Source of the DNA: Nitrospira sp.
GTDB lineage: Bacteria > Nitrospirota > Nitrospiria > Nitrospirales > Nitrospiraceae
NCBI GenBank assembly: GCA_015904045.1
Contig: JABMDG010000062.1
Location: 6,392 to 16,268 of the forward strand
Reading direction: 5' to 3'
Length of the DNA stretch: 9,877 nt
Positions within the stretch are counted from its first letter, which is position 1, and each line of letters starts with the position of its first letter. The notes beneath the pieces are model-generated. The model was given only the letters and a program-made list of their open reading frames with translations. It did no database searches and had not been told where the DNA came from. A program made the translations under genes and the position numbers. Below, piece after piece: positions 1-9,126 of this stretch.

Positions 1-71
1 TCTTCATTGACGCTCCGGACGGCTACGAGATTGAACTGATCGAACGACCGGCCGGCGTGAAGATCGTGTAA
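1..71 (+). CDS. VOC/glyoxalase-like protein, C-terminal end (copy 1, partial)
   Basis: The window opens inside a gene read from position 3, with 22 codons before a TAA stop at 69-71. The peptide ends in GYEIELIERPAGVKIV. This matches the C-terminus of the complete VOC-family protein at 5589-5987 with one difference (Ala for Thr). The segment includes the IEL glutamate that is the last metal ligand in glyoxalase I-like VOC enzymes. The stop lies 26 bases before the dapF-family start, so the two genes are probably co-transcribed. The rest of the gene lies outside the window, so intactness cannot be judged. Confidence 0.85.
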   Translation, partial: FIDAPDGYEIELIERPAGVKIV

Positions 72-97
72 CGAGACATTCCACAAGGAGATAGCCG

Positions 98-967
98 ATG
101 AAGAACGGGTTTTTCCGCGGGCATGGGCTCGGCAACGACTATATCGTCATGGACCCCAAAGAATTGACCTTTACGCTCACACCCAAGAACATCGAGCTGA
201 TCTGCAACCGCAACTGGGGCCTCGGCAGCGACGGGATTCTGGCCCTGGTCCCCTCAAAAAAAGCCGATTTCGGGCTGCGCATTTTCAACCCGGACGGCAG
301 CGAAGCGGAAAAATCCGGGAACGGCCTCCGGATCTTCGCACGCTATCTCCACGCGACCGGCAAGACGAAGAAGAAACACTTCACAGTGGAGACAAAGGGC
401 GGGCTCGTGACGATCGCGTTGCACCTGGATCGCCATGGCGACGCCGGCGCGGCGACCGTCGAAATGGGACAGGCCACCTTCAAGCCGTCCGCGCTTCCCT
501 GCACGCTCGATGTCCCGGAATTGATCCAGCAGCCGATCGACGCCGCAGGCCGCGCGTTGACCTTCACCGGCCTGAGCGTGGGCAATCCCCATTGCGTCGT
601 CTTCAAGCCAACAGGCGAGTCCTGGTCGCGGGAAGAACTGTTGGCCCTCGGACCGGCGTTGGAGAACCACCGCCTGTTTCCGAAACGGACCAATGTCCAG
701 TTGGCTGTTCCGACTGGGCCGAAGGACATCTTTATCCTCATCTGGGAACGCGGCGCCGGAGAAACCCAAGCCTCCGGCTCGTCGTCGTGCGCCGCGGCCA
801 GTGCCGCGGTGCGTCTGGGACTGGTGAACAGCCCCGTCACGGTCAACATGCCGGGCGGCAGGCTGAACATCGACGTGGCTCCTGACTTCAATCTCACCAT
901 GAAAGGTCCCGTCGCCGAAGTCGCACGGGGCACATTAAGCCCGTCATTCGTGCGATCGCTGAAGTAG
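98..967 (+). CDS. dapF: DapF-family protein (diaminopimelate epimerase fold) with both catalytic Cys replaced by Ser
   Basis: The 289-residue protein has the full two-domain DapF fold signature. Family members interconvert LL- and meso-diaminopimelate in the cytoplasm for lysine and peptidoglycan synthesis, using two cysteines as acid and base without a cofactor. Substrate-site motifs are present: HGLGND (9-14, Asn13), FNPDGSE (Asn64), GNPHCV (162-167), RTN (Asn199) and ERGAGET (217-223). The catalytic positions are changed: the usual CGNG is SGNG (Ser73, codon TCC at 314-316), and the usual ACGSG is ASGSS (Ser226, codon TCC at 773-775). The start at 98 has AAGGAG at 85-90, seven bases upstream. 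It follows a VOC gene by 26 bases and precedes uvrC. The fold assignment is secure. DAP epimerase activity is doubtful, so the symbol marks family rather than proven function. Alternatives are a weak or repurposed isomerase, an elimination enzyme or a non-catalytic binding protein. Confidence 0.9.
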   Translation: MKNGFFRGHGLGNDYIVMDPKELTFTLTPKNIELICNRNWGLGSDGILALVPSKKADFGLRIFNPDGSEAEKSGNGLRIFARYLHATGKTKKKHFTVETKGGLVTIALHLDRHGDAGAATVEMGQATFKPSALPCTLDVPELIQQPIDAAGRALTFTGLSVGNPHCVVFKPTGESWSREELLALGPALENHRLFPKRTNVQLAVPTGPKDIFILIWERGAGETQASGSSSCAAASAAVRLGLVNSPVTVNMPGGRLNIDVAPDFNLTMKGPVAEVARGTLSPSFVRSLK

Positions 968-982
968 CCTGCCTTCAGCAAA

Positions 983-1101
983 CAGCCGTCAGCCCTCAGC
1001 TTGAATGGTATCCTCCGGATTGCTCGCCACCGCTCCGCACCGTACAATGTCAGGTATCACCCTGTTGTTTCTCTTACCTGAAAGCTGAAGGCTGATCGCT
1101 G
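983..1101. repeat. Imperfect inverted repeat between dapF and uvrC
   Basis: The left arm (983-1002, CAGCCGTCAGCCCTCAGCTT) matches the reverse complement of the right arm (1082-1101) at 17 of 20 positions, with 79 bases between them. The right arm ends exactly one base before the uvrC ATG at 1102. The arms are built from GCTGA/TCAGC units and resemble dispersed intergenic repeats common in Nitrospira-type genomes; that comparison is from general knowledge and was not searched here. It could fold into an RNA stem-loop in the uvrC leader. Confidence 0.6.
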
Positions 1102-2970
1102 ATGGCCGCCTCATCGGATTTACAATCCAAACTCGCCCATCTGCCCGACAACCCCGGTGTGTATCTGTTCAAGAACGCGCAGGGAGAGATCGTCTACATC
1201 GGAAAAGCCGCGGTGCTCGCCGACCGCGTCCGGTCCTACTTTCAGAAAGGCACCGACCAGAGTCCCAAAACCGCGCTGCTCGTCGGCCAGGTGGCCGACC
1301 TGGAAACGATGGTGACCCGATCCGAACTCGAAGCCCTCATTCTCGAAAGCAATCTGGTCAAGCGCCACAAACCCCGTTTCAACATCGTCCTGCGGGACGA
1401 CAAGCAATACCCCTATGTGCGGCTGCCCATCAAGGATGACTTCCCGCGGTTGTCGATCGTGCGCCGCGTCCAGAAGGATGGTGCGTTGTACTATGGGCCC
1501 TATACCCCGGCCAACGCCTTGCGCGAAACCTTGAAGGTGATCAAGCACGTCTTCCCGTTGGCGACCTGTACCATCGATATCGACGGGACCGCCGATCGCG
1601 CCTGCATCGAGTTTGAAATCAAACGCTGTATGGCCCCCTGCACCGGCAACCAGTCGAAGGAGGAGTACCATCAGATCGTCAAACAGGTCCGACAATTTCT
1701 CGAAGGACGGGACCATGAGTTGTTGGACGGCCTTCGCGCCAAGATGGAGGCCGCGGCCGAGCGGGAAGAGTTCGAGGAGGCCGCGCGCGTGCGGGACCGC
1801 TTATTCAAGATCGAACGGATGCTGGAGAAACAGCGTATCACGCAGACCTCGGCGACCGAACAGGATGTGATCGGCTTGGCCCGACAAGGCGCCGGGGTGG
1901 ATCTCCAAATCCTCTTTGTGCGCGGTGGGTTGCTGATCGGCCGCAAGGATTTCTTCTGGCCTCAATCGGCCGATGTGCCGGATGAGGAACTGGTTCGATC
2001 CGCTATCGAACAGTTCTACAACAAAGACGGCCAGCCGCCGAAAGAAGTCCTGATCCCCATCAATCTCGAAGACACGGCGCTGATCGAACAGTGGCTGTCC
2101 GACAAGCGCGGAGAATCCGTCCGCGTTCTGGCGCCGGAACGCGGCGTGAAACATCAGTTGGTGTTGCTGGCCGAGGAGAATGCGGCGGCCGCCGCCGCCG
2201 GCCATTTGCGCGACGAAGAATTGGATCGGCAAGCCGGTGAAGAGCTGAAACGGCTGCTGCGATTGGACCAAGCCCCGCGTCGGATTGAGGGTTTCGACAT
2301 CTCCAATACCCTAGGCAACCAGTCCGTCGCCTCAATGGTCGTCTGGGAAGACGGCCAGTTGAAGAAGGCAGATTACCGGCGGTTCACGATCCAGACGGTC
2401 GAGGGAGCCAATGACTTCGCAAGCATGAAAGAGGTGGTTACGCGGCGCTACGGACGGGAGGAGAACTTGGTTCAGCCGGATCTGATCCTCATCGACGGTG
2501 GACTCGGCCAACTAGGTGCCGCATTGGAAGGGCTGAAAGAGACCGGGCACCAGACCTTGCCGATCCTCGGATTGGCGAAGGCCCGCGGCGATAAGGAGGA
2601 GCGGGTGTTTCTGGCGGGGAGAAAGAACCCGATCATACTCAAGCCGCACTCCCCGGCCACCCACCTGCTTCAGCGGATTCGCGACGAAGCGCACCGCTTT
2701 GCGATCACCTTCCATCGGAAGCTGCGGGGGCAGGCGCTCCTGGGATCGGTGCTGGATCAGATTACCGGCATCGGGGCGAGGCGGCGCAATCGGCTTCTGA
2801 ATCAGTTCGGAAGTCTTGAGCTTCTGGCAGCGGCCAGCGACGATGCCCTTCGTGCCGCAGGATTGAGCACCGACACCGTTCTGCGCCTACGGGAGGCGTT
2901 GAAACACCCATCTGCGCCATCAGGAACTGCACCGACCATCCAGGTACGCTCCAAATCCCGCTTAAAATAA
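1102..2970 (+). CDS. uvrC: Excinuclease ABC subunit C (UvrC)
   Basis: At 622 residues this is a full-length UvrC, the nuclease that cuts DNA on both sides of a lesion after UvrA/UvrB loading in nucleotide excision repair. The GIY-YIG nuclease domain spans about 14-92, with GVY (19-21), YIGK (32-35) and Arg42. Four cysteines at 156, 168, 176 and 180 reproduce the spacing of the UvrC iron-sulfur cluster. A UVR motif that contacts UvrB lies near 220-240 (EFEEAARVRDRL). The RNase H-like domain that makes the 5' cut has Asp399 (GFDIS), Asp465 (LIDGG) and His531 (DEAHRF). A tandem helix-hairpin-helix region covers about 550-602. An alanine run (361-366) sits in a GC-rich linker. A weak GAAGG lies about ten bases before the ATG, inside the right arm of the inverted repeat. 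The last nine bases overlap the convergent fadL remnant. Confidence 0.97.
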   Translation: MAASSDLQSKLAHLPDNPGVYLFKNAQGEIVYIGKAAVLADRVRSYFQKGTDQSPKTALLVGQVADLETMVTRSELEALILESNLVKRHKPRFNIVLRDDKQYPYVRLPIKDDFPRLSIVRRVQKDGALYYGPYTPANALRETLKVIKHVFPLATCTIDIDGTADRACIEFEIKRCMAPCTGNQSKEEYHQIVKQVRQFLEGRDHELLDGLRAKMEAAAEREEFEEAARVRDRLFKIERMLEKQRITQTSATEQDVIGLARQGAGVDLQILFVRGGLLIGRKDFFWPQSADVPDEELVRSAIEQFYNKDGQPPKEVLIPINLEDTALIEQWLSDKRGESVRVLAPERGVKHQLVLLAEENAAAAAAGHLRDEELDRQAGEELKRLLRLDQAPRRIEGFDISNTLGNQSVASMVVWEDGQLKKADYRRFTIQTVEGANDFASMKEVVTRRYGREENLVQPDLILIDGGLGQLGAALEGLKETGHQTLPILGLAKARGDKEERVFLAGRKNPIILKPHSPATHLLQRIRDEAHRFAITFHRKLRGQALLGSVLDQITGIGARRRNRLLNQFGSLELLAAASDDALRAAGLSTDTVLRLREALKHPSAPSGTAPTIQVRSKSRLK

Positions 2971-3501
2971 ATATTTGAAGCTGAACGTGCCCAGATGAAT
3001 GCTCGCATCGTAGGATCCATCGACCGTCGGATTCACATTACCGGCCACGCTGAATGAGTCATAGACCCATTCTTGAAAGGCCGCATCGAATCCAATCGCC
3101 TTCGGCCACAAGGCGGATTCACTGCCGCACGGAATCAGTCCAAGGAACTTTCCCGGCCCCTTGCAAAGAAACCCCATCCCAACGGAGAGCGTGTGGGCGG
3201 AAAGGGAAATTGTGGCAGGGTTGAATGTCGCAGCGGGCACAGGGTTTTCTGTCCTCGTATAACCGGATCGCACGGCGATGTCCCAATGCGGGAGCCAGCT
3301 CGGATCGAGCCACTTGTACTCAGTCCCGACCGCCACGACCGGGACGTTTTTCCATCCTGCCGGTTGTGGAATCATGGCTCCGTTGGACAACTGCACATCG
3401 AGATTCCGAAATGAGCCCCACCCCACAAACTCGGCATTGACCTCGATTTTCCACTCGCGATCAGAAGTCCGAACCGGCCACACCGCGACAGCCCCGGTCA
3501 C
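2962..3501 (-). pseudogene. OmpP1/FadL-type outer-membrane protein, C-terminal half only
   Basis: About 180 residues look like the C-terminal beta-strands of an OmpP1/FadL hydrophobic-substrate channel. Alternating strand patterns are visible, such as EWKIEVNAEFVGW and WLPHWDIAVRSGYTRTENP, and the end is FSFKYLF with the terminal Phe used by the BAM insertion machinery. The only start is a GTG (3499-3501) that overlaps the protease stop. There is no signal peptide, and half of the usual length of roughly 400 or more residues is missing. The FadL-like frame stays open upstream of the GTG to about 3520 (reading DVSLPQLVTG), so the homology runs into the last codons of the neighbouring protease gene. 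This places a deletion junction at about 3510-3522. Without a signal peptide the product could not reach the outer membrane. The family call is by recognition and was not confirmed by a search. Confidence 0.75.
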
Positions 3502-4226
3502 GAGTTGGGGAAGAGAAACATCCCGATGAAGACCACCCAGCTGCCGTTCGATGCCATCGAGGAATCCAACTTGCCCATCAACGCCCCGACAAGTACCGTA
3601 AGCCCCAGCACACCAAGCAACACGCCGAATCCAAGACCGACGACGGCCGCCTGTTTGGTCGCCCGATAGAAGTCCTTCCCCCAGGCCCAGAGTCCTGCGC
3701 GTAATACCCGCCCCCCATCCAAGGGAAATCCAGGAATCAAATTGAAAAGCCCAAGCTGGAGGTTCACCATCCCCAACAAGGCCCCAAGCATGACCACGCC
3801 TTGAATATCGCGCGGCGATTGAATCGATTCAGCGAGCGCGGCCAATCCGAAACAAGCCGCCCCCAGCACAAAGCTCACGATGGGACCAGCCACGGCAATG
3901 AGAAATTCCGCTCGGGGAGTGGGGGCTTCCTTCCGCATATGGGCCACACCCCCGAAAATGAACAGGGTGATCCGTTCGATGGGAATGCAATAACGTAGCG
4001 CCACATAGGAATGGCCGAGTTCGTGCAACAGAACGGAGAGAAACAAGAGAAGCGCAGCAACGCCGCCCATCGCCCAATAGCGCGTGGGCGAGAGACCCGG
4101 CAACTCCTCCGGCAAATACCCGGTCGCCAACGTCCAGGTCACGAGGAGAAAGATCAGAAACCAAGACGCATGAACGCGAATGGGTATCCCCAATGCGCGA
4201 CCGATTTGCCAGGAGGGCCATTGCAT
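3498..4226 (-). CDS. Site-2-protease-like membrane zinc metalloprotease, C-terminus altered
   Basis: This is a polytopic inner-membrane protease of the M50 (S2P/SpoIVFB-like) family, which cuts substrates within the membrane. Counting from the ATG at 4226 it has 242 residues, with an N-terminal GIPIRVHASW motif, about six hydrophobic segments, the zinc motif HELGH at 68-72, FGGVAHM at 91-97 and NLIPGFPLDGGR at 162-173 (third ligand Asp170). An ATG at 4247 would add seven residues. I prefer 4226 because family members begin near MxWxxQIGR and neither start has a good Shine-Dalgarno. Many relatives continue after WVFIGLFL into paired CBS domains. Here the protein ends FIGMFLFPNS and stops, and those last codons are out-of-frame fadL sequence. 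The catalytic core is intact, so the shortened enzyme may still work. No substrate is indicated. Confidence 0.88.
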   Translation of the reverse strand: MQWPSWQIGRALGIPIRVHASWFLIFLLVTWTLATGYLPEELPGLSPTRYWAMGGVAALLLFLSVLLHELGHSYVALRYCIPIERITLFIFGGVAHMRKEAPTPRAEFLIAVAGPIVSFVLGAACFGLAALAESIQSPRDIQGVVMLGALLGMVNLQLGLFNLIPGFPLDGGRVLRAGLWAWGKDFYRATKQAAVVGLGFGVLLGVLGLTVLVGALMGKLDSSMASNGSWVVFIGMFLFPNS

Positions 4227-4287
4227 AAACACACCGTAACAGTTCATAAAAAGAGGGTCAATTTATCGCGCCAAGCCGGGCTTCAGG

Positions 4288-4293
4288 TATACT
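4288..4293 (+). promoter_or_regulatory. Probable -10 element TATACT placed for a leaderless deacetylase transcript
   Basis: TATACT ends seven bases before the ATG at 4301, so transcription would start at or next to the start codon. The -35 region is weak; TTTATC/TTATCG around 4262-4268 is the best candidate, with a long spacer. No Shine-Dalgarno precedes the ATG, which fits leaderless translation. The signal peptide that starts at this ATG argues against a later start codon. Confidence 0.45.
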
Positions 4294-4300
4294 AGCTCTC

Positions 4301-5014
4301 ATGGTCCTGCGATCCCCCACATGGGTTCTCAGCCTCCTGCTTATCGGCAGCTGGCTGCTCGGCATTCCAGCCACGAGCGCAGCCCAAGTCATCAAGTCCG
4401 GTCCACCTGCCTGCCCGGGCGTTGCACTGACGTTCGACCTCTGCCCTGTCAAGAAGGGCTCAGGCTATGACAAGCCACTGATGGAGTTTTTGATCCAACA
4501 CCGAATCCCTTCAACCTTTTTCATGTCCGGCAAGTGGGCGGCCAAACACGAAGAAGATGTACGCCATCTGCTCGGCATAGAGTTTTTTGAAATCGGGACC
4601 CATGGCGAGGTACATGCCCATCTACCGATGCACGATGCTGCAGAACAGCGGGCTGAAATTCTCCGCCCTGTTACGATGCTGCATGAGCGCTATGCCCACA
4701 CAGCCACGTTGTTTCGCCCTCCCTATGGTGAATATAACGATGTGACCATCGATGTTGTGAAAGCACTTGGCCTCCGGTTTATCCAATGGAACATCGAGTC
4801 CGGCGACCCGGACCCGACGCTATCGGCCGATCAGATCCTGAGCCGCATTGAGCAACGCGCCAAGCCGGGCAGCATCGTGGTGCTGCATGCCAATGGGAAG
4901 GGGAAACAGACCAGAGCGGTGATCGAACGATTGACGACGGACGTGCTACCCCGCAAAGGACTGCGGCCCATGACCGTCAGTGATCTGTTGAATTGCACAC
5001 CACCAGCCCCATGA
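4301..5014 (+). CDS. Exported polysaccharide deacetylase-like protein (NodB/CE4 family)
   Basis: This 237-residue protein starts with a signal peptide: MVLR, a hydrophobic core at about 7-22, then ATSAAQ with likely cleavage near residue 27-28. The mature part is a NodB-homology domain; the family removes N- or O-acetyl groups from cell-wall or capsule sugars outside the cytoplasm. Visible motifs are TFD (44-46), HGEVH (101-105), RPPYG (139-143) and VVLH (193-196). Motif 1 reads TFDLCP, so the second Asp of TFDDG, normally a metal ligand, is Leu. This variant is seen in a divergent subfamily and leaves the metal site less certain. The gene is divergent from the protease and overlaps the acetyltransferase start by four bases (ATGA), so the two are likely translated together. 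Substrate is unknown. Confidence 0.88.
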   Translation: MVLRSPTWVLSLLLIGSWLLGIPATSAAQVIKSGPPACPGVALTFDLCPVKKGSGYDKPLMEFLIQHRIPSTFFMSGKWAAKHEEDVRHLLGIEFFEIGTHGEVHAHLPMHDAAEQRAEILRPVTMLHERYAHTATLFRPPYGEYNDVTIDVVKALGLRFIQWNIESGDPDPTLSADQILSRIEQRAKPGSIVVLHANGKGKQTRAVIERLTTDVLPRKGLRPMTVSDLLNCTPPAP

Positions 5015-5487
5015 ACGATCCCCGAATCAGAGCCATGCAAGCCGAAGACCGCGCTGAGATCGTTCAGCTGTTGGGCGAATCCGATCCTTGGAGGACGCTG
5101 GGCTACACGATCGCCGATTGGAATCGGATTTTTTGTCCCCTGCCGCAAGGGCGGGACAGTTATGTGGCTGAACTTGACGGGCGCGTGGCGGGTGTCGCCC
5201 TTGTGAAGCAGAAGTTTCTGCTCGGTGACTATCTGGAACTCCTGGGCGTAGCCGAATGGGCCCGCCAAAAAGGAATCGGCAGCCTGCTGCTCAAACACGT
5301 TGAACAACTTGTCTTCGAACGAACAAAAAATCTCTTCGCTTGCGTCTCGGACTTCAACCAATCGGCGCGAGACTTTTACAAGAAACAGGGCTATCAGGAA
5401 ATCGGTCCGATGCCGAACTTTCTGATTCCAGGCAGCGCGGAAATACTCCTGCGCAAAACGGCGGGACCAACTAGAAAAACGCCATAA
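5011..5487 (+). CDS. GNAT-family N-acetyltransferase
   Basis: The 158-residue protein has a single GNAT fold that transfers an acetyl group from acetyl-CoA to an amine. The pyrophosphate-binding loop is RQKGIG (85-90) at the start of helix 3, and the C-terminal motif NQSARDFYKKQGYQEIG (116-132) is typical of the RimI-like branch. The ATG at 5011 is chosen because it overlaps the deacetylase stop as ATGA, the usual translational coupling arrangement; an upstream TTG at 4993 would add six residues without support. The acceptor substrate cannot be read from the sequence. The link to the deacetylase is positional only. Confidence 0.9.
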   Translation: MNDPRIRAMQAEDRAEIVQLLGESDPWRTLGYTIADWNRIFCPLPQGRDSYVAELDGRVAGVALVKQKFLLGDYLELLGVAEWARQKGIGSLLLKHVEQLVFERTKNLFACVSDFNQSARDFYKKQGYQEIGPMPNFLIPGSAEILLRKTAGPTRKTP

Positions 5488-5550
5488 CTCGTCACCGAGC
5501 GCATGTCACACGCAAGAGACTCACTATGGAAAGCAATTTCCCCGTTGCGA

Positions 5551-5580
5551 TTGACTCATGACGTGTGCCGGAAGTACAAA
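5551..5580 (+). promoter_or_regulatory. Possible sigma-70 promoter for VOC copy 2
   Basis: TTGACT (5551-5556) and TACAAA (5575-5580) are separated by 18 bases. The -35 box is strong and the -10 box matches four of six consensus bases. The predicted start of transcription, near 5587, is almost at the ATG at 5589. The only purine-rich stretch (GGAAG, 5570-5574) is too far upstream to serve as a normal ribosome binding site. The evidence is by eye only. Confidence 0.35.
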
Positions 5581-5588
5581 TCCATACG

Positions 5589-5987
5589 ATGAACGTCACA
5601 AAGCTTCTTCATACCCGCATGCGCGTGAGCGACCTGGATCAGACGATCCAATTCTATACGAGCGTGCTGGGCCTGGAAGTAATCGAGCACAAGATCTCGC
5701 CCCGCGGGTCGCAGCTGGCTTTCTTAAAGGTCCCCAACAGTGACGAACTCATCGAGTTGACCAGCTTCCCTCCCAGTGGGCCGGTAACAGTCCAGGAGGA
5801 TCTCGTCCATCTTGCCTTTCAAGTCGAAAGTCTCGAGCAAACAATCGCATCGCTCAATGCGCAGGGGATCAAGATCACCGATGGTCCGACGAAGACTTCC
5901 TCCGGCAGCCAGTTTATCTTCATCGACGCCCCGGATGGCTATGAAATCGAGCTGATCGAACGCCCGACCGGTGTGAAGATCGTCTAG
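5589..5987 (+). CDS. VOC-family (glyoxalase I-like) metalloenzyme, copy 2
   Basis: The 132-residue protein is a vicinal-oxygen-chelate fold made of two beta-alpha-beta-beta-beta modules. The four glyoxalase I metal-ligand positions are all present: His8 (LLHTRMRV), Glu56 (IELT), His74 (DLVHLAF) and Glu121 (YEIELIE). This fits lactoylglutathione lyase or a related metal-dependent lyase or isomerase. The first module (FYTSVLGLEV) and the ending GYEIELIE are very typical. The start at 5589 (MNVTKLLHTRMRVSD) is chosen because family homology begins there; a GTG at 5565 would add eight unsupported residues. The C-terminal 22 residues are almost identical to the partial gene at 1-71. Both copies are followed by a dapF-family gene, so the pair was duplicated as a unit. 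The exact substrate is uncertain. Confidence 0.88.
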   Translation: MNVTKLLHTRMRVSDLDQTIQFYTSVLGLEVIEHKISPRGSQLAFLKVPNSDELIELTSFPPSGPVTVQEDLVHLAFQVESLEQTIASLNAQGIKITDGPTKTSSGSQFIFIDAPDGYEIELIERPTGVKIV

Positions 5988-6127
5988 CCCCATAGTCAAG
6001 GGTCGGAATTTCTCTATGATTAATACCCCTTGACTGCTGACCGCCTTTCCCGCAGCTATTGACCATTGACCACCACCCCAGTAAGGTTTCTCACGCTTCA
6101 CGAACGACGAGATGCAAAGGAGGAGAA
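5988..6127. other. 140-base spacer between VOC copy 2 and the second dapF
   Basis: In copy 1 the equivalent spacer is only 26 bases, so this one has been enlarged. It holds a tandem 7-mer ATTGACC (6058-6071) and a further TTGACT (6030-6035). At 6117-6125 it contains a strong AAAGGAGGA ribosome binding site that fixes the dapF copy 2 start at 6128. A TATGAT at 6014-6019 could be a -10 box, but no good -35 is seen. No ORF is supported. Confidence 0.4.
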
Positions 6128-6562
6128 ATGAAGAACGGCTTTTTCCGCGGCCACGGCCTCGGCAATGATTACGTCGTCATGGACCCCAAGGAGCTGAGTT
6201 TCAAGCTGATACCAAAGACCATCAAAGCAATTTGTGACCGGAATTGGGGGCTCGGCAGCGACGGGATTTTGGCGTTGGTACCCTCCAGGAAGGCTGATTT
6301 CGGCCTGCGCATTTTCAATCCGGACGGCAGCGAAGCGGAAAAGTCCGGAAACGGACTCAGGATCTTTGCCCGCTATCTCCACGCCACCGGCAAAACAAAG
6401 AAAACGCATTTCACGGTCGAGACGAAAGGCGGACTCGTCACCATCGATCTGCACCTCGATCGGCATCGAGATGCCGGCGCCGCCACCGTTGAAATGGGGC
6501 AAGCCACGTTCAAGCCGGCTGCCCTTCCCTGCTGCGCGACAAGAAAGGATTCCGTATTCTGA
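6128..6562 (+). pseudogene. Second dapF-family copy, truncated to the N-terminal domain
   Basis: Starting at the ATG at 6128, just after a strong AAAGGAGGA site, the frame encodes 144 residues. Residues 1-135 match the full-length copy at 98-967 with 13 differences (about 90% identity). The last nine residues (CATRKDSVF) are unrelated. Homology ends near 6532, right after the shared GCCCTTCCCTGC-like sequence. The C-terminal domain, with the second catalytic position and the substrate contacts GNPH, RTN and ERGAGET, is absent. Position 73 is Ser, as in copy 1, so the Cys-to-Ser change predates the duplication or was kept by gene conversion. DapF's active site lies between its two domains, so this fragment should have no epimerase activity. 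A stable half-protein with another role cannot be excluded. Confidence 0.85.
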
Positions 6563-6672
6563 ACGGGTTTCGGCATTCTGCACTCAATGCGCGTTCGAAT
6601 CACGCGCCATGGCCTTCACAGCGCACGGAACGCTCGTCCGTCTACCGTGAAAGTCCAGGGATGGAGGATCCG
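6563..6672. other. Junction region between the truncated dapF and the histidine kinase
   Basis: This short stretch belongs to neither neighbour. It contains a perfect 6-bp hairpin (GCGCGT at 6589-6594, ACGCGC at 6602-6607, seven-base loop) without a following T run. The kinase reading frame is open through the whole stretch, back to a TGA at 6490-6492, but has no ATG before 6661. This could be the remains of a longer kinase gene cut at the dapF junction, or chance. No promoter was recognised. Confidence 0.35.
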
Positions 6673-7338
6673 ATGGATACACTCCGGGCGATGGAACAAC
6701 GACTGTCAGCCTTGCTGGAAGACCGCACCCATATCGGACGCGATCTTCACGACTGCATCCTCCAATCGCTCTACGCAATCGGCTTGAATATCGAGGCCGA
6801 GTGGCGGAAGCACCGCCACACCACTCCGGAATCGGAACAGACTCACGCCCACACCATTGAGCAGATCAATCGGCTCATTCACGACATACGCCAGATGATT
6901 CACGGACTCGATGAGGGTGTTGTGCAGGAATTCGACCTGATGACAGAACTCCAGACGTTGAAATCGGCCTACGATCAGATTGGCCACGTGCGGATCAGCT
7001 TGGATCTTCACCCCGCTGCCATTGAGGTTCTGACCAAGGAAGAAGAACGGGAGATTCTAAGCATTGCGCGGGAGGCCCTTAGCAACTGTGTCCGCCATGC
7101 CAGGGCTGCCCATGCCGCGATCTCGATCCGCAGGCGCGGCGACAGAATCCGTCTGCAGATCAGCGACGACGGACGAGGCTTCGCTACGGGAGATGGCCGG
7201 CCGCAGGGCTACGGCCTTGCCAACATGACCGCTCGCGCAAAAAAGATCGGCGGAACATTGCGCATTCAATCCGAGGAAGGCCGATTCACCGATATCATTG
7301 CGGAATTCTTGTTGGAGCCTATTCTGACGCCTGTATGA
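6673..7338 (+). CDS. Sensor-less histidine kinase (HisKA_3/NarX-DesK type)
   Basis: This 221-residue cytoplasmic kinase consists almost entirely of the transmitter. It has a HisKA_3 dimerisation/phosphoacceptor helix with RDLHDCILQSLYAIGLN and phospho-His26, followed by a HATPase_c domain with N-box EALSNCVRHA (Asn138), DDGRGF (165-170) and GYGLANM (179-185). There is no transmembrane segment and no PAS, GAF or HAMP domain, so the signal must come from a partner or from lost N-terminal sequence. The ATG at 6673 is chosen because GGAGG (6663-6667) lies five bases before it; the ATG at 6661 lacks a usable site and would add four residues. The stop overlaps the regulator's ATG (ATGA at 7335-7338), so the pair is one operon. 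It should phosphorylate the regulator at 7335-8018. Confidence 0.92.
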   Translation: MDTLRAMEQRLSALLEDRTHIGRDLHDCILQSLYAIGLNIEAEWRKHRHTTPESEQTHAHTIEQINRLIHDIRQMIHGLDEGVVQEFDLMTELQTLKSAYDQIGHVRISLDLHPAAIEVLTKEEEREILSIAREALSNCVRHARAAHAAISIRRRGDRIRLQISDDGRGFATGDGRPQGYGLANMTARAKKIGGTLRIQSEEGRFTDIIAEFLLEPILTPV

Positions 7339-8018
7339 AACGCGCTATTCGCATTGTAATTCTTGACGATCACGAACTCGTCCGGAAGGGGCTCCGTACC
7401 TTCCTCGATCGTGAACCGGACCTCCTGGTGGTGGGGGAAGCGGGGACCTTGGCTGATGCACTGCCACTCGTGGCGCGTCTTCATCCACATCTGATGCTGC
7501 TCGACATGAAGTTACCCGATGTCTCCGGTATAGAATCCTGCCGGCGGCTTCTTGCTGCCGCGCCCAATCTACGAGTCCTGGTCCTGACCGGTCATGCTGA
7601 GGCCACCACCGTTTCCGCAGCCATCAAAAGCGGCGCCCATGGCTACATTCTGAAAGACGTGAAACTAGACGATCTCGCTCAGGCCATTCGAACAGTTGCA
7701 GCAGGCCGCGGCTACCTCGATCCTCGCGTTACCCAGTATGCGTTACATTGGATTCGCACCGGGGTATCCCAGACATCCCTCCTTCAGGGACTGAGAGCGC
7801 TGTCGCCCCAGGAGCGCCTGATTATGCCCCTACTGGCACAGGGTAAAACCAATAAGGAAATTGCCGTTCAGCTGAAGCTGAGTGACAAAACCGTCAAGAA
7901 TTATCTCGTCAACATTTATACCAAGCTCAACGTGAACCGCCGCACGGAAGCCGTGGCCTGGTTCATGCGCGAATGTCCTTCCAGCGAAGCCGAAAATCCC
8001 ATCAGCCCGTCTGCCTGA
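7335..8018 (+). CDS. NarL/FixJ-family response regulator
   Basis: The 227-residue protein has an N-terminal receiver domain (about 5-120) and a C-terminal LuxR-type helix-turn-helix (about 155-211). The phosphorylation site is intact: acidic pair Asp11-Asp12, phospho-acceptor Asp57 (LLDMKLPD), Thr85 and Lys107. The DNA-binding domain shows LSPQERLIMPLLAQGKTNKE with the recognition helix in LSDKTVKNYLVNIYTKL. Its start codon overlaps the kinase stop (ATGA), so it is almost certainly the kinase's cognate transcription factor. Target promoters are unknown. A small GC hairpin (CCGTC 8007-8011 / GACGG 8017-8021) spans the stop codon but lacks a U tract, so it is weak as a terminator. The convergent FIST gene ends 29 bases downstream. 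Confidence 0.95.
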   Translation: MKRAIRIVILDDHELVRKGLRTFLDREPDLLVVGEAGTLADALPLVARLHPHLMLLDMKLPDVSGIESCRRLLAAAPNLRVLVLTGHAEATTVSAAIKSGAHGYILKDVKLDDLAQAIRTVAAGRGYLDPRVTQYALHWIRTGVSQTSLLQGLRALSPQERLIMPLLAQGKTNKEIAVQLKLSDKTVKNYLVNIYTKLNVNRRTEAVAWFMRECPSSEAENPISPSA

Positions 8019-8046
8019 CGGCGATCCGTACAACATCACGGTGTAT

Positions 8047-9126
8047 TCACAATATTTCCGGCTTCGAGTCGTGAACTACCGGACATTGATCTGTTAACGT
8101 CATGGTCTGATTGTGCAAATCGCACGTTCCCACCGCATAGGGAGAAGTCTCACCGTAGGAGTAGAATCCGACCTGCTGCGTCCCTTTGGGCAGCACATCG
8201 GCAGTGGCCTCGATCTCCTCTTCCGTCCTTCCGCCTAACACCAGACGGCGCCCCACACAACTGATGGCGATGGCGAGCGTTGAGCCGGTGTCGTCGGTCG
8301 GCCACCGCGTGGAGGATGCCGCCCCCGAGGCCCCTTGGACCAACCGGTCGAAATTCGCCTCCATCAGTTGCGCGAAAGATCCTTCCGGAATATCTCCCGC
8401 GAACGTCAGCGATTGGTCATCTTCGTTGACCGCCAAGATCGTCCTGACCAGGCTCTTGGGGTCCGTGAGGCTGGCCCGCAAGGACAGCGGGAAGAGGAGC
8501 CCTGTGGCCGGCAGTCCGGACGCTCGATCGCCCAGATATTCCTTGTAGAGTTGAAGCGCGGGGCGATTATCGAGTTCGAAGAGAACATTGCCTTTGGACC
8601 GTGTGACCAGGCGCTCAGGACCGAACCGATCCCAGCCGCCTTTTGAGCCATGACCGATCCGAATCCGATCGCCGTACAAACCGACGGCCGTCACAAAGCC
8701 TGTTTGAGGCCGCCGGTCTTGCAACACCCAGGTACGGCGGAATCGGTCTCCATCGCCGGCCAATCCTCCGGTTACCACAACAGAGGCGGATACCACCGCG
8801 TTCAGCCCCCGCACCAATTCGCTCCCATTCACGCGAAGGCCGTCGGAAAGAACGAGGACGCCTTTCAATGTTGGATCATTAAGCTGTCGCGCGATAGTCT
8901 CTCCAGCCGCAAATGAATCCTCCGAGGACTCGGCCGGGGCGCTGGCGACCCTAACAGTGGTGTGATCGAACCGTACAATGGCCGCGCTGAGACTTTCATC
9001 GAAAATCTGTGTTCCGAAAATTTCTCCGGCTGTTGAACAGCCGATTACCGTGGCCTGAGGATATCTCTCGATAAACTCGCTGATCGGGTCCGCCGAATCG
9101 ATGAAACTGGACGATCCGAACAGCAC
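8047..9126 (-). CDS. FIST-domain sensory protein (FIST_N + FIST_C), reading frame after an amber codon
   Basis: The open frame of 359 codons from a GTG at 9126 holds a FIST_N domain (VIGCSTAGEIFGTQ near 27-40) and a FIST_C domain ending in FYSYGETSPYAVGTCDLHNQTMTLT. FIST proteins are thought to be small-ligand (possibly amino-acid) sensors tied to signal transduction. Homology continues upstream of the GTG to an ATG at 9211-9213 (MEIHTLRYDRKDR-stop-SVKDWPQLDSRQTLIV), which has a good AAGGAA ribosome site. An in-frame TAG at codon 14 interrupts that frame. The GTG has no ribosome site and would start inside the first beta-strand. The gene may therefore be inactive, weakly expressed from a later start, or rescued by readthrough. 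It converges with the kinase/regulator operon and could have been its sensor; that link is inference. Confidence 0.85.
   Translation of the reverse strand: MLFGSSSFIDSADPISEFIERYPQATVIGCSTAGEIFGTQIFDESLSAAIVRFDHTTVRVASAPAESSEDSFAAGETIARQLNDPTLKGVLVLSDGLRVNGSELVRGLNAVVSASVVVTGGLAGDGDRFRRTWVLQDRRPQTGFVTAVGLYGDRIRIGHGSKGGWDRFGPERLVTRSKGNVLFELDNRPALQLYKEYLGDRASGLPATGLLFPLSLRASLTDPKSLVRTILAVNEDDQSLTFAGDIPEGSFAQLMEANFDRLVQGASGAASSTRWPTDDTGSTLAIAISCVGRRLVLGGRTEEEIEATADVLPKGTQQVGFYSYGETSPYAVGTCDLHNQTMTLTDQCPVVHDSKPEIL

Follow-up and report, generated by a model that had tools for sequence, protein, structure and literature searches.

The catalytic pair of H. influenzae DapF consists of Cys73 and Cys217. 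Elsewhere, the superfamily of proline racemases, hydroxyproline epimerases and dehydratases (PF05544) shows replacement of a single cysteine rather than of both, and PhzF (PF02567) is an isomerase acting on another substrate. According to the available parts of two papers, cofactor-independent epimerases of amino acids have a cysteine pair at the core of catalysis (PMC8142540, PMC12039745), and exchange of cysteine for serine or alanine in cysteine enzymes is described, in the portions available, as strongly lowering activity (PMC11602996, PMC5296763). For C. glutamicum DapF (CgDapF), the accessible text reports that alanine at N15, N74, N85, N159, N194, E212, R213, or T223 nearly abolishes activity, and proposes that thiol oxidation switches the enzyme off (PMC5296763).

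The stretch of DNA analyzed here (the window; 9,877 nucleotides from a Nitrospira sp.) encodes a DapF relative with serine at both catalytic cysteine positions (Table 1). In the translation of ORF 98–967, Ser73 lies within EKSGNGLR and Ser226 within ETQASGSSSC, and the interval 314–775 has the two serine codons as its exact ends. Translation and alignment to solved DapF chains, in which the two serines align with both catalytic cysteines, confirmed the claim of an earlier note on this DNA that both sites are serine and both codons TCC. The contact residues listed there as kept (N13, N64, N163, N199, E217, and R218) are likewise all present. The product scored 221.5 bits with the DapF equivalog model TIGR00652 (cut-off 114.65) and 182 bits with PF01678. 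It thus resembles DapF in predicted fold, length, score over the cut-off, and contact residues (Glu, Arg, and a set of Asn, as well as the Asn that follows the first site), and LysA and MurE are present in such genomes. The Ser/Ser type differs from DapF in the replacement of both cysteines by serine, of Phe15 by Tyr, Met72 by Lys, Cys79 by Ile, and mostly of Gly229 and of Thr228, the second-loop Thr, by Ser, the latter as in the product of ORF 98–967 (Ser228). One defining DapF feature, the two cysteines, is therefore absent from a protein that has the profile score, fold, and binding residues of the family, and "DapF-like" should be its proper name pending proof of activity.

Table 1. Positions of the features of the window on which the comparison is based.
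Feature	Position	Strand	Remark
Ser/Ser DapF-like gene	98..967	+	289 aa; ORF
Ser73 codon TCC, first catalytic Cys site	314..316	+	alignment to solved DapF chains
Ser226 codon TCC, second catalytic Cys site	773..775	+	alignment to solved DapF chains
Tyr15 codon TAT	140..142	+	Tyr in every aligned Ser/Ser row, Phe in every other
Lys72 codon AAA	311..313	+	Lys in every aligned Ser/Ser row; Met/Phe elsewhere
VOC (glyoxalase-fold) gene, 3' end	1..70	+	directly upstream of dapF; 84% identical to 5917-5986
uvrC-like gene	1102..2970	+	downstream of dapF; usual neighbor of Ser/Ser dapF in Nitrospira
Intact VOC (glyoxalase) gene of second VOC-dapF unit	5565..5987	+	PF00903 76.9 bits
Second dapF copy, cut at about residue 135	6128..6562	+	keeps Tyr15, Lys72, Ser73; without the Ser226 half

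Other families of similar fold were compared as well. At E ≤ 0.001, PF01678 was the only one of the three Pfam families found in the product of ORF 98–967, with no match to PF02567 (PhzC-PhzF), which sets it apart from PhzF, or to PF05544. In some other members of the Ser/Ser clade, a precomputed PF05544 annotation accompanies PF01678; proteins of that superfamily act on other substrates and, among the structural matches listed, are only about 11–17% identical to the Ser/Ser protein. The predicted model of ORF 98–967 fitted best to an inhibitor-bound DAP epimerase (9mro), and its third-best structural match was O-ureidoserine racemase (7vdy), an enzyme with a different substrate whose Cys residues are mentioned in the available text of PMC8142540.

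The lists of relatives were compiled as the best matches of Ser/Ser queries and are therefore biased toward the Ser/Ser type, giving no measure of its frequency per phylum. All 359 listed relatives, ORF 98–967 included, are Ser/Ser (358 parsed by script and P0265 read by eye), and 358 of them parse as Tyr/Lys/Ser/Ser, P0265 being without its N-terminus. The best 120 matches of ORF 98–967 are all Ser/Ser, and the named ones belong to Nitrospira or Nitrospiraceae, bar one filed under a mayfly. This entry (P0111) is a Nitrospira-like Ser/Ser DapF from a contig of 3.3 Mb assigned to Ephemera danica and probably reflects bacterial contamination. A genome scan gave 81 DapF rows in the best 80 of 295 loci, all Ser/Ser, under titles naming Nitrospira, Nitrospiraceae, Nitrospirae, or Nitrospirota, with two Nitrosospira. 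Searches from two distant members, L166 and L207, likewise returned only Ser/Ser proteins among the best 120 matches of each, with names from Armatimonadota, Candidatus Binatia, Candidatus Rokubacteria, Thermodesulfobacteriota, Candidatus Dadabacteria, candidate division WOR-3, and Leptospirillum. A DapF match was found in 178 of 198 Nitrospirota genomes, and an HMM of the Ser/Ser type split the genomes into 66 scoring at least 352 bits and the rest scoring at most 304 bits. Serine occupies both positions in all 66 (65 read directly and G028 through protein P0122).

In phylogenetic trees, the Ser/Ser type formed one side of one branch (aLRT 99 with 37 Ser/Ser rows; SH-like 99 with 291), so that the clade sought among related DapF proteins does exist, and the change is that of a clade and no isolated loss. 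A single origin is likely; the stem is long (1.77 in the tree with 37 Ser/Ser rows), and the tree program cautions that joins between long branches can be spurious. Between ORF 98–967 and nine Nitrospira relatives, dN/dS was 0.03–0.12, with dS above 1 in six of the nine comparisons. Together with the presence of Ser/Ser in the relatives, these values rule out sequencing error and recent decay, in agreement with the earlier note, which had held the change to be persistent and had pointed to Ser73 in the duplicate copy (6128–6562), also found here. The duplicate ends at about residue 135 and is thus uninformative on position 226. Among 130 distinct genes, Ser73 is encoded by both serine codon boxes (TCN in 112, AGY in 18) and Ser226 by TCN in all 130. 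In G070, G152, and G174 (loci L176, L173, and L180), only the first cysteine has changed, and independently; the DapF of these genomes forms a separate clade with Ser73/Cys226. Like the Ser/Ser type, this protein has serine at the first thiol site and is the sole DapF found; unlike it, it retains Cys226 and Phe15, has Phe72, and is encoded near argH, lysA, dapA, and dapB.

Conservation was examined in an alignment of 172 Ser/Ser and 62 Cys/Cys rows and in a position table of 122 Ser/Ser, 62 Cys/Cys, and three Ser73/Cys226 rows, some of which repeat one gene. Three other cysteines, C231, C166, and C36, were considered as substitutes. C231, five residues past Ser226, is Cys in 85% of the 172 Ser/Ser rows and in 20 of the 62 Cys/Cys rows. 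At C166, which follows NPH, 90% of Ser/Ser rows have Cys, a residue that is rare there among Cys/Cys rows; the aligned E. coli DapF also carries NPHC, and the position is Phe or Ala in Leptospirillum-type and G018-type proteins. C36 is conserved in both types alike. None of these patterns supports another cysteine standing in for position 73 or 226.

Two further replacements accompany the serines. Position 15 is Tyr in all 122 Ser/Ser rows and Phe in all 65 others of the position table, while position 72 is Lys in all 122, Met in 61 and Phe in one of the Cys/Cys rows, and Phe in the three Ser73/Cys226 rows. Ser73 by itself does not bring the pair with it, for the Ser73/Cys226 clade is without Tyr15 and Lys72; the pair accompanies the absence of both thiols. 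The Ser/Ser type also has Ile79 where the Cys/Cys type has Cys, and in the 172-row alignment Ser228 (87%) for Thr and Ser229 (97%) for Gly. Conversely, N13, N64, N75, N163, N199, E217, and R218 are kept in all 122 Ser/Ser rows, position 163 being Val in part of the Cys/Cys rows and in the Ser73/Cys226 rows. The CgDapF residues sensitive to alanine have the same counterparts in ORF 98–967, with the exception of T223 (Ser228). The available text on C. trachomatis DapF assigns F22 to the active site and M71 to the pocket (PMC5885031); by adjacency to N20 and C72, these would correspond to positions 15 and 72. A variable loop of DapF, Pro-Glu-Met or Val-Ser-Gln, is described in the accessible part of PMC12039745 as curving round the substrate with no direct hydrogen bond to the ligand, and we take this loop to be residues 70–72 of ORF 98–967. 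Tyr and Lys are the base pair of PLP-dependent alanine racemase, according to the available portion of PMC8142540; Lys72 and Tyr15 are thus chemically able to serve, although alanine racemase has PLP. The coupled appearance of Tyr15 and Lys72 suggests that catalysis has been rebuilt and that the site is not dead.

The pathway genes of the Ser/Ser genomes were then considered. Of the 66 Ser/Ser Nitrospirota genomes, 63 yielded no DapF other than the Ser/Ser type, and hence no Cys/Cys DapF; N. moscoviensis and N. defluvii, both titled complete, are among them. Both types occur only in G018, G028, and G037. A paralog beside a normal DapF, one of the options in the earlier note, is therefore rejected for most genomes; the note's account of the lost thiols and the kept binding site holds, the Ser/Ser clade that it suggested looking for exists, and the coupled Tyr15 and Lys72 were not mentioned in it. 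Two Ser/Ser copies are present in G008 and G040, those of G008 (L072) in a tandem VOC-dapF-VOC-dapF arrangement with both dapF genes full-length and Ser/Ser. LysA was found at E ≤ 1e-60 in all 66 genomes (weakest in G028, 2.6e-65). All 22 Ser/Ser genomes examined for MurE, 15 from the 66 and seven from elsewhere, have it with the DNPR motif, which we take as the mark of a meso-DAP-adding MurE. The LL-DAP aminotransferase family (TIGR03540) exceeded its cut-off in 17 of these 22 genomes; G031 fell narrowly below it, and G018, G028, G037, and G081 gave weaker matches only.

Another source of meso-DAP was sought in DAP dehydrogenase (Ddh). N. defluvii has a Ddh of type II, whose best PDB matches are DAP dehydrogenases. 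This type was found in 10 of the 198 Nitrospirota genomes, namely G001 (L124) and nine more (10 of the 66 Ser/Ser and none of the 132 others), a distribution that excludes it as a general bypass. Because it is confined to these 10 genomes, 53 of the 63 Ser/Ser-only genomes are without it; homology searches, which would miss very divergent or unfamiliar enzymes, thus gave no Cys/Cys DapF and no type II Ddh in these 53. Type I Ddh exceeded its cut-off in none of 12 Ser/Ser genomes searched (five of them among the 66); matches below the cut-off were obtained in eight of the 12, four of them full-length, and the one checked is near type II. N. moscoviensis is without Cys/Cys DapF, type II Ddh, and type I Ddh over the cut-off.

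The genomic context separates the two types further. With flanks of about 1.5 or up to 4 kb, dapF is near lysA, dapA, or dapB in 58 of 62 Cys/Cys loci and in none of 25 Ser/Ser loci. Proximity to these genes is thus usual for dapF in this phylum and not required, and the Ser/Ser gene departs from it, being located away from the lysine cluster in the loci read. Translations of the lysA-dapA stretch of N. moscoviensis and N. defluvii, read by eye, contained no dapF. In G018 and G037, the Cys/Cys dapF lies about 0.5 kb from lysA and the Ser/Ser gene is on another contig. The usual order in Nitrospira loci is VOC, Ser/Ser dapF, and the uvrC-like gene, the last of which is named from its translation and is presumably uvrC.

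Bacteria with the Ser/Ser type either run DAP epimerization by different chemistry or make meso-DAP in another way. The genes for LL-DAP aminotransferase family proteins before this step, and for LysA and MurE after it, argue for a pathway need for an epimerase. From the computed features (the replacements, their joint occurrence in the aligned rows, the grouping in one clade, the low dN/dS, the fold, and the pathway gene pattern), we infer that the Ser/Ser protein acts on DAP and that Lys72 and Tyr15 may do the chemistry. On balance, judging from sequence comparison, the protein is probably an active, thiol-free LL-DAP epimerase with the DapF fold, placed between a DapL-type aminotransferase and LysA/MurE. 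In the proposed mechanism, the distal L-center of DAP would be held as in DapF by N64, N163, N199, E217, and R218. At the reacting carbon, the thiolate/thiol pair would be replaced by Lys72 and Tyr15 acting with Ser73 and Ser226, which would lie at the two helix ends, and these four residues would remove and return the alpha-proton in a two-face transfer without thiols. The DapL-type aminotransferase would act upstream, and the product meso-DAP would feed LysA and MurE. More tentatively, the protein may represent a thiol-free, multi-phylum branch of DAP epimerases in which Lys72 and Tyr15, with Ser73 and Ser226, take the proton from an unactivated amino-acid alpha-carbon, and be the sole meso-DAP supplier in most Nitrospira and Leptospirillum-type bacteria. 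Against the epimerase reading stand the precedents for loss of activity upon Cys to Ser exchange, in the parts of those reports available, the three genomes with both types, and the location of the gene outside the lysine cluster.

The main rival to a thiol-free epimerase is that another enzyme makes meso-DAP. DAP epimerization would then have been lost, the Ser/Ser protein would act in another way on a DAP-like amino acid (by elimination or isomerization, for example, or by racemizing another substrate), and meso-DAP would come from a novel, non-homologous epimerase or, where a genome has one, from a Ddh. We regard this as unlikely. It would account for the absence of both thiols, for the location away from the lysine cluster in all 25 loci, and for the Cys/Cys DapF that G018 and G037 keep close to lysA and that G028 also has. 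The contact residues for DAP tested, however, are kept in every Ser/Ser row of the position table. The genomes with type II Ddh are all Ser/Ser, and type I was tested in 12 only; set against this are the 53 Ser/Ser-only genomes without type II. PhzF-family proteins, of the same fold and with other chemistry, were found in 13 of 14 Ser/Ser genomes tested, and proteins with the Asp/Glu-racemase fold in three of the 14. A replacement must, however, hold in both Nitrospira and Leptospirillum-type genomes, and G031 gave no PhzF-family match. O-ureidoserine racemase, as the third-best structural match, also agrees with another reaction.

Glutamate epimerization offers a different role. With the glutamate racemase MurI (TIGR00067) over the cut-off in none of 50 Nitrospira-type Ser/Ser genomes (five weak matches of 19–23 bits) and none in G018, G028, and G037, the protein could be a dual DAP/glutamate epimerase that replaces the missing MurI in Nitrospira. 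The accessible text on C. trachomatis DapF describes such a DapF relative, which makes D-Glu with PLP and, unlike the Ser/Ser protein, retains both cysteines (PMC5885031). MurI is present in all 13 Leptospirillum-type Ser/Ser genomes, so glutamate epimerization is no shared role of the clade, and the model for bifunctional DapF/Glu racemases, NF038284, gave only 55.4 bits for ORF 98–967 (cut-off 350); this dual function is improbable. A non-catalytic protein that binds or senses DAP, or a structural partner of another enzyme, would explain kept binding residues with lost thiols, and the gene adjoins a VOC gene in Nitrospira. The invariant new polar residues Tyr15 and Lys72 fit catalysis better, and there is no fused domain; the neighbors of the intact copy are the VOC and uvrC-like genes, though a kinase/regulator pair follows the truncated copy. 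We consider such a role very improbable.

A search of titles and abstract openings in the open-access literature, with most subscription journals outside its range, found no report of a Ser/Ser DapF. If the Ser/Ser protein is an epimerase, a conserved natural thiol-free branch would show another way to abstract a proton with a pKa of about 29, and the enzyme should resist both thiol oxidation and thiol-directed DapF inhibitors; resistance to oxidation would be a plausible benefit for nitrite and iron oxidizers. If it is not the epimerase, many such genomes need another, novel source of meso-DAP. In either case, Ser/Ser proteins score above the curated threshold of the DapF profile, and many are annotated in databases as diaminopimelate epimerase.

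The window itself is a mosaic. Positions 1–3513 match L001 and L002 at 92–93% nucleotide identity and L004 at only 71–79%, while 3511–6531 match L004 at 95.9% and 6537–8092 at 93.2%, about 6.2 kb of L004 being absent in between. Either Nitrospira species have recombined here or the contig is a chimera. A FadL/TodX-type outer-membrane gene (2962–3501, minus strand) ends at the first mosaic junction, and its ORF covers only positions 276–367 of the 421-position FadL/TodX profile, below the cut-off. After the truncated dapF copy, positions 6661–8018 encode a histidine kinase and a LuxR-type response regulator.
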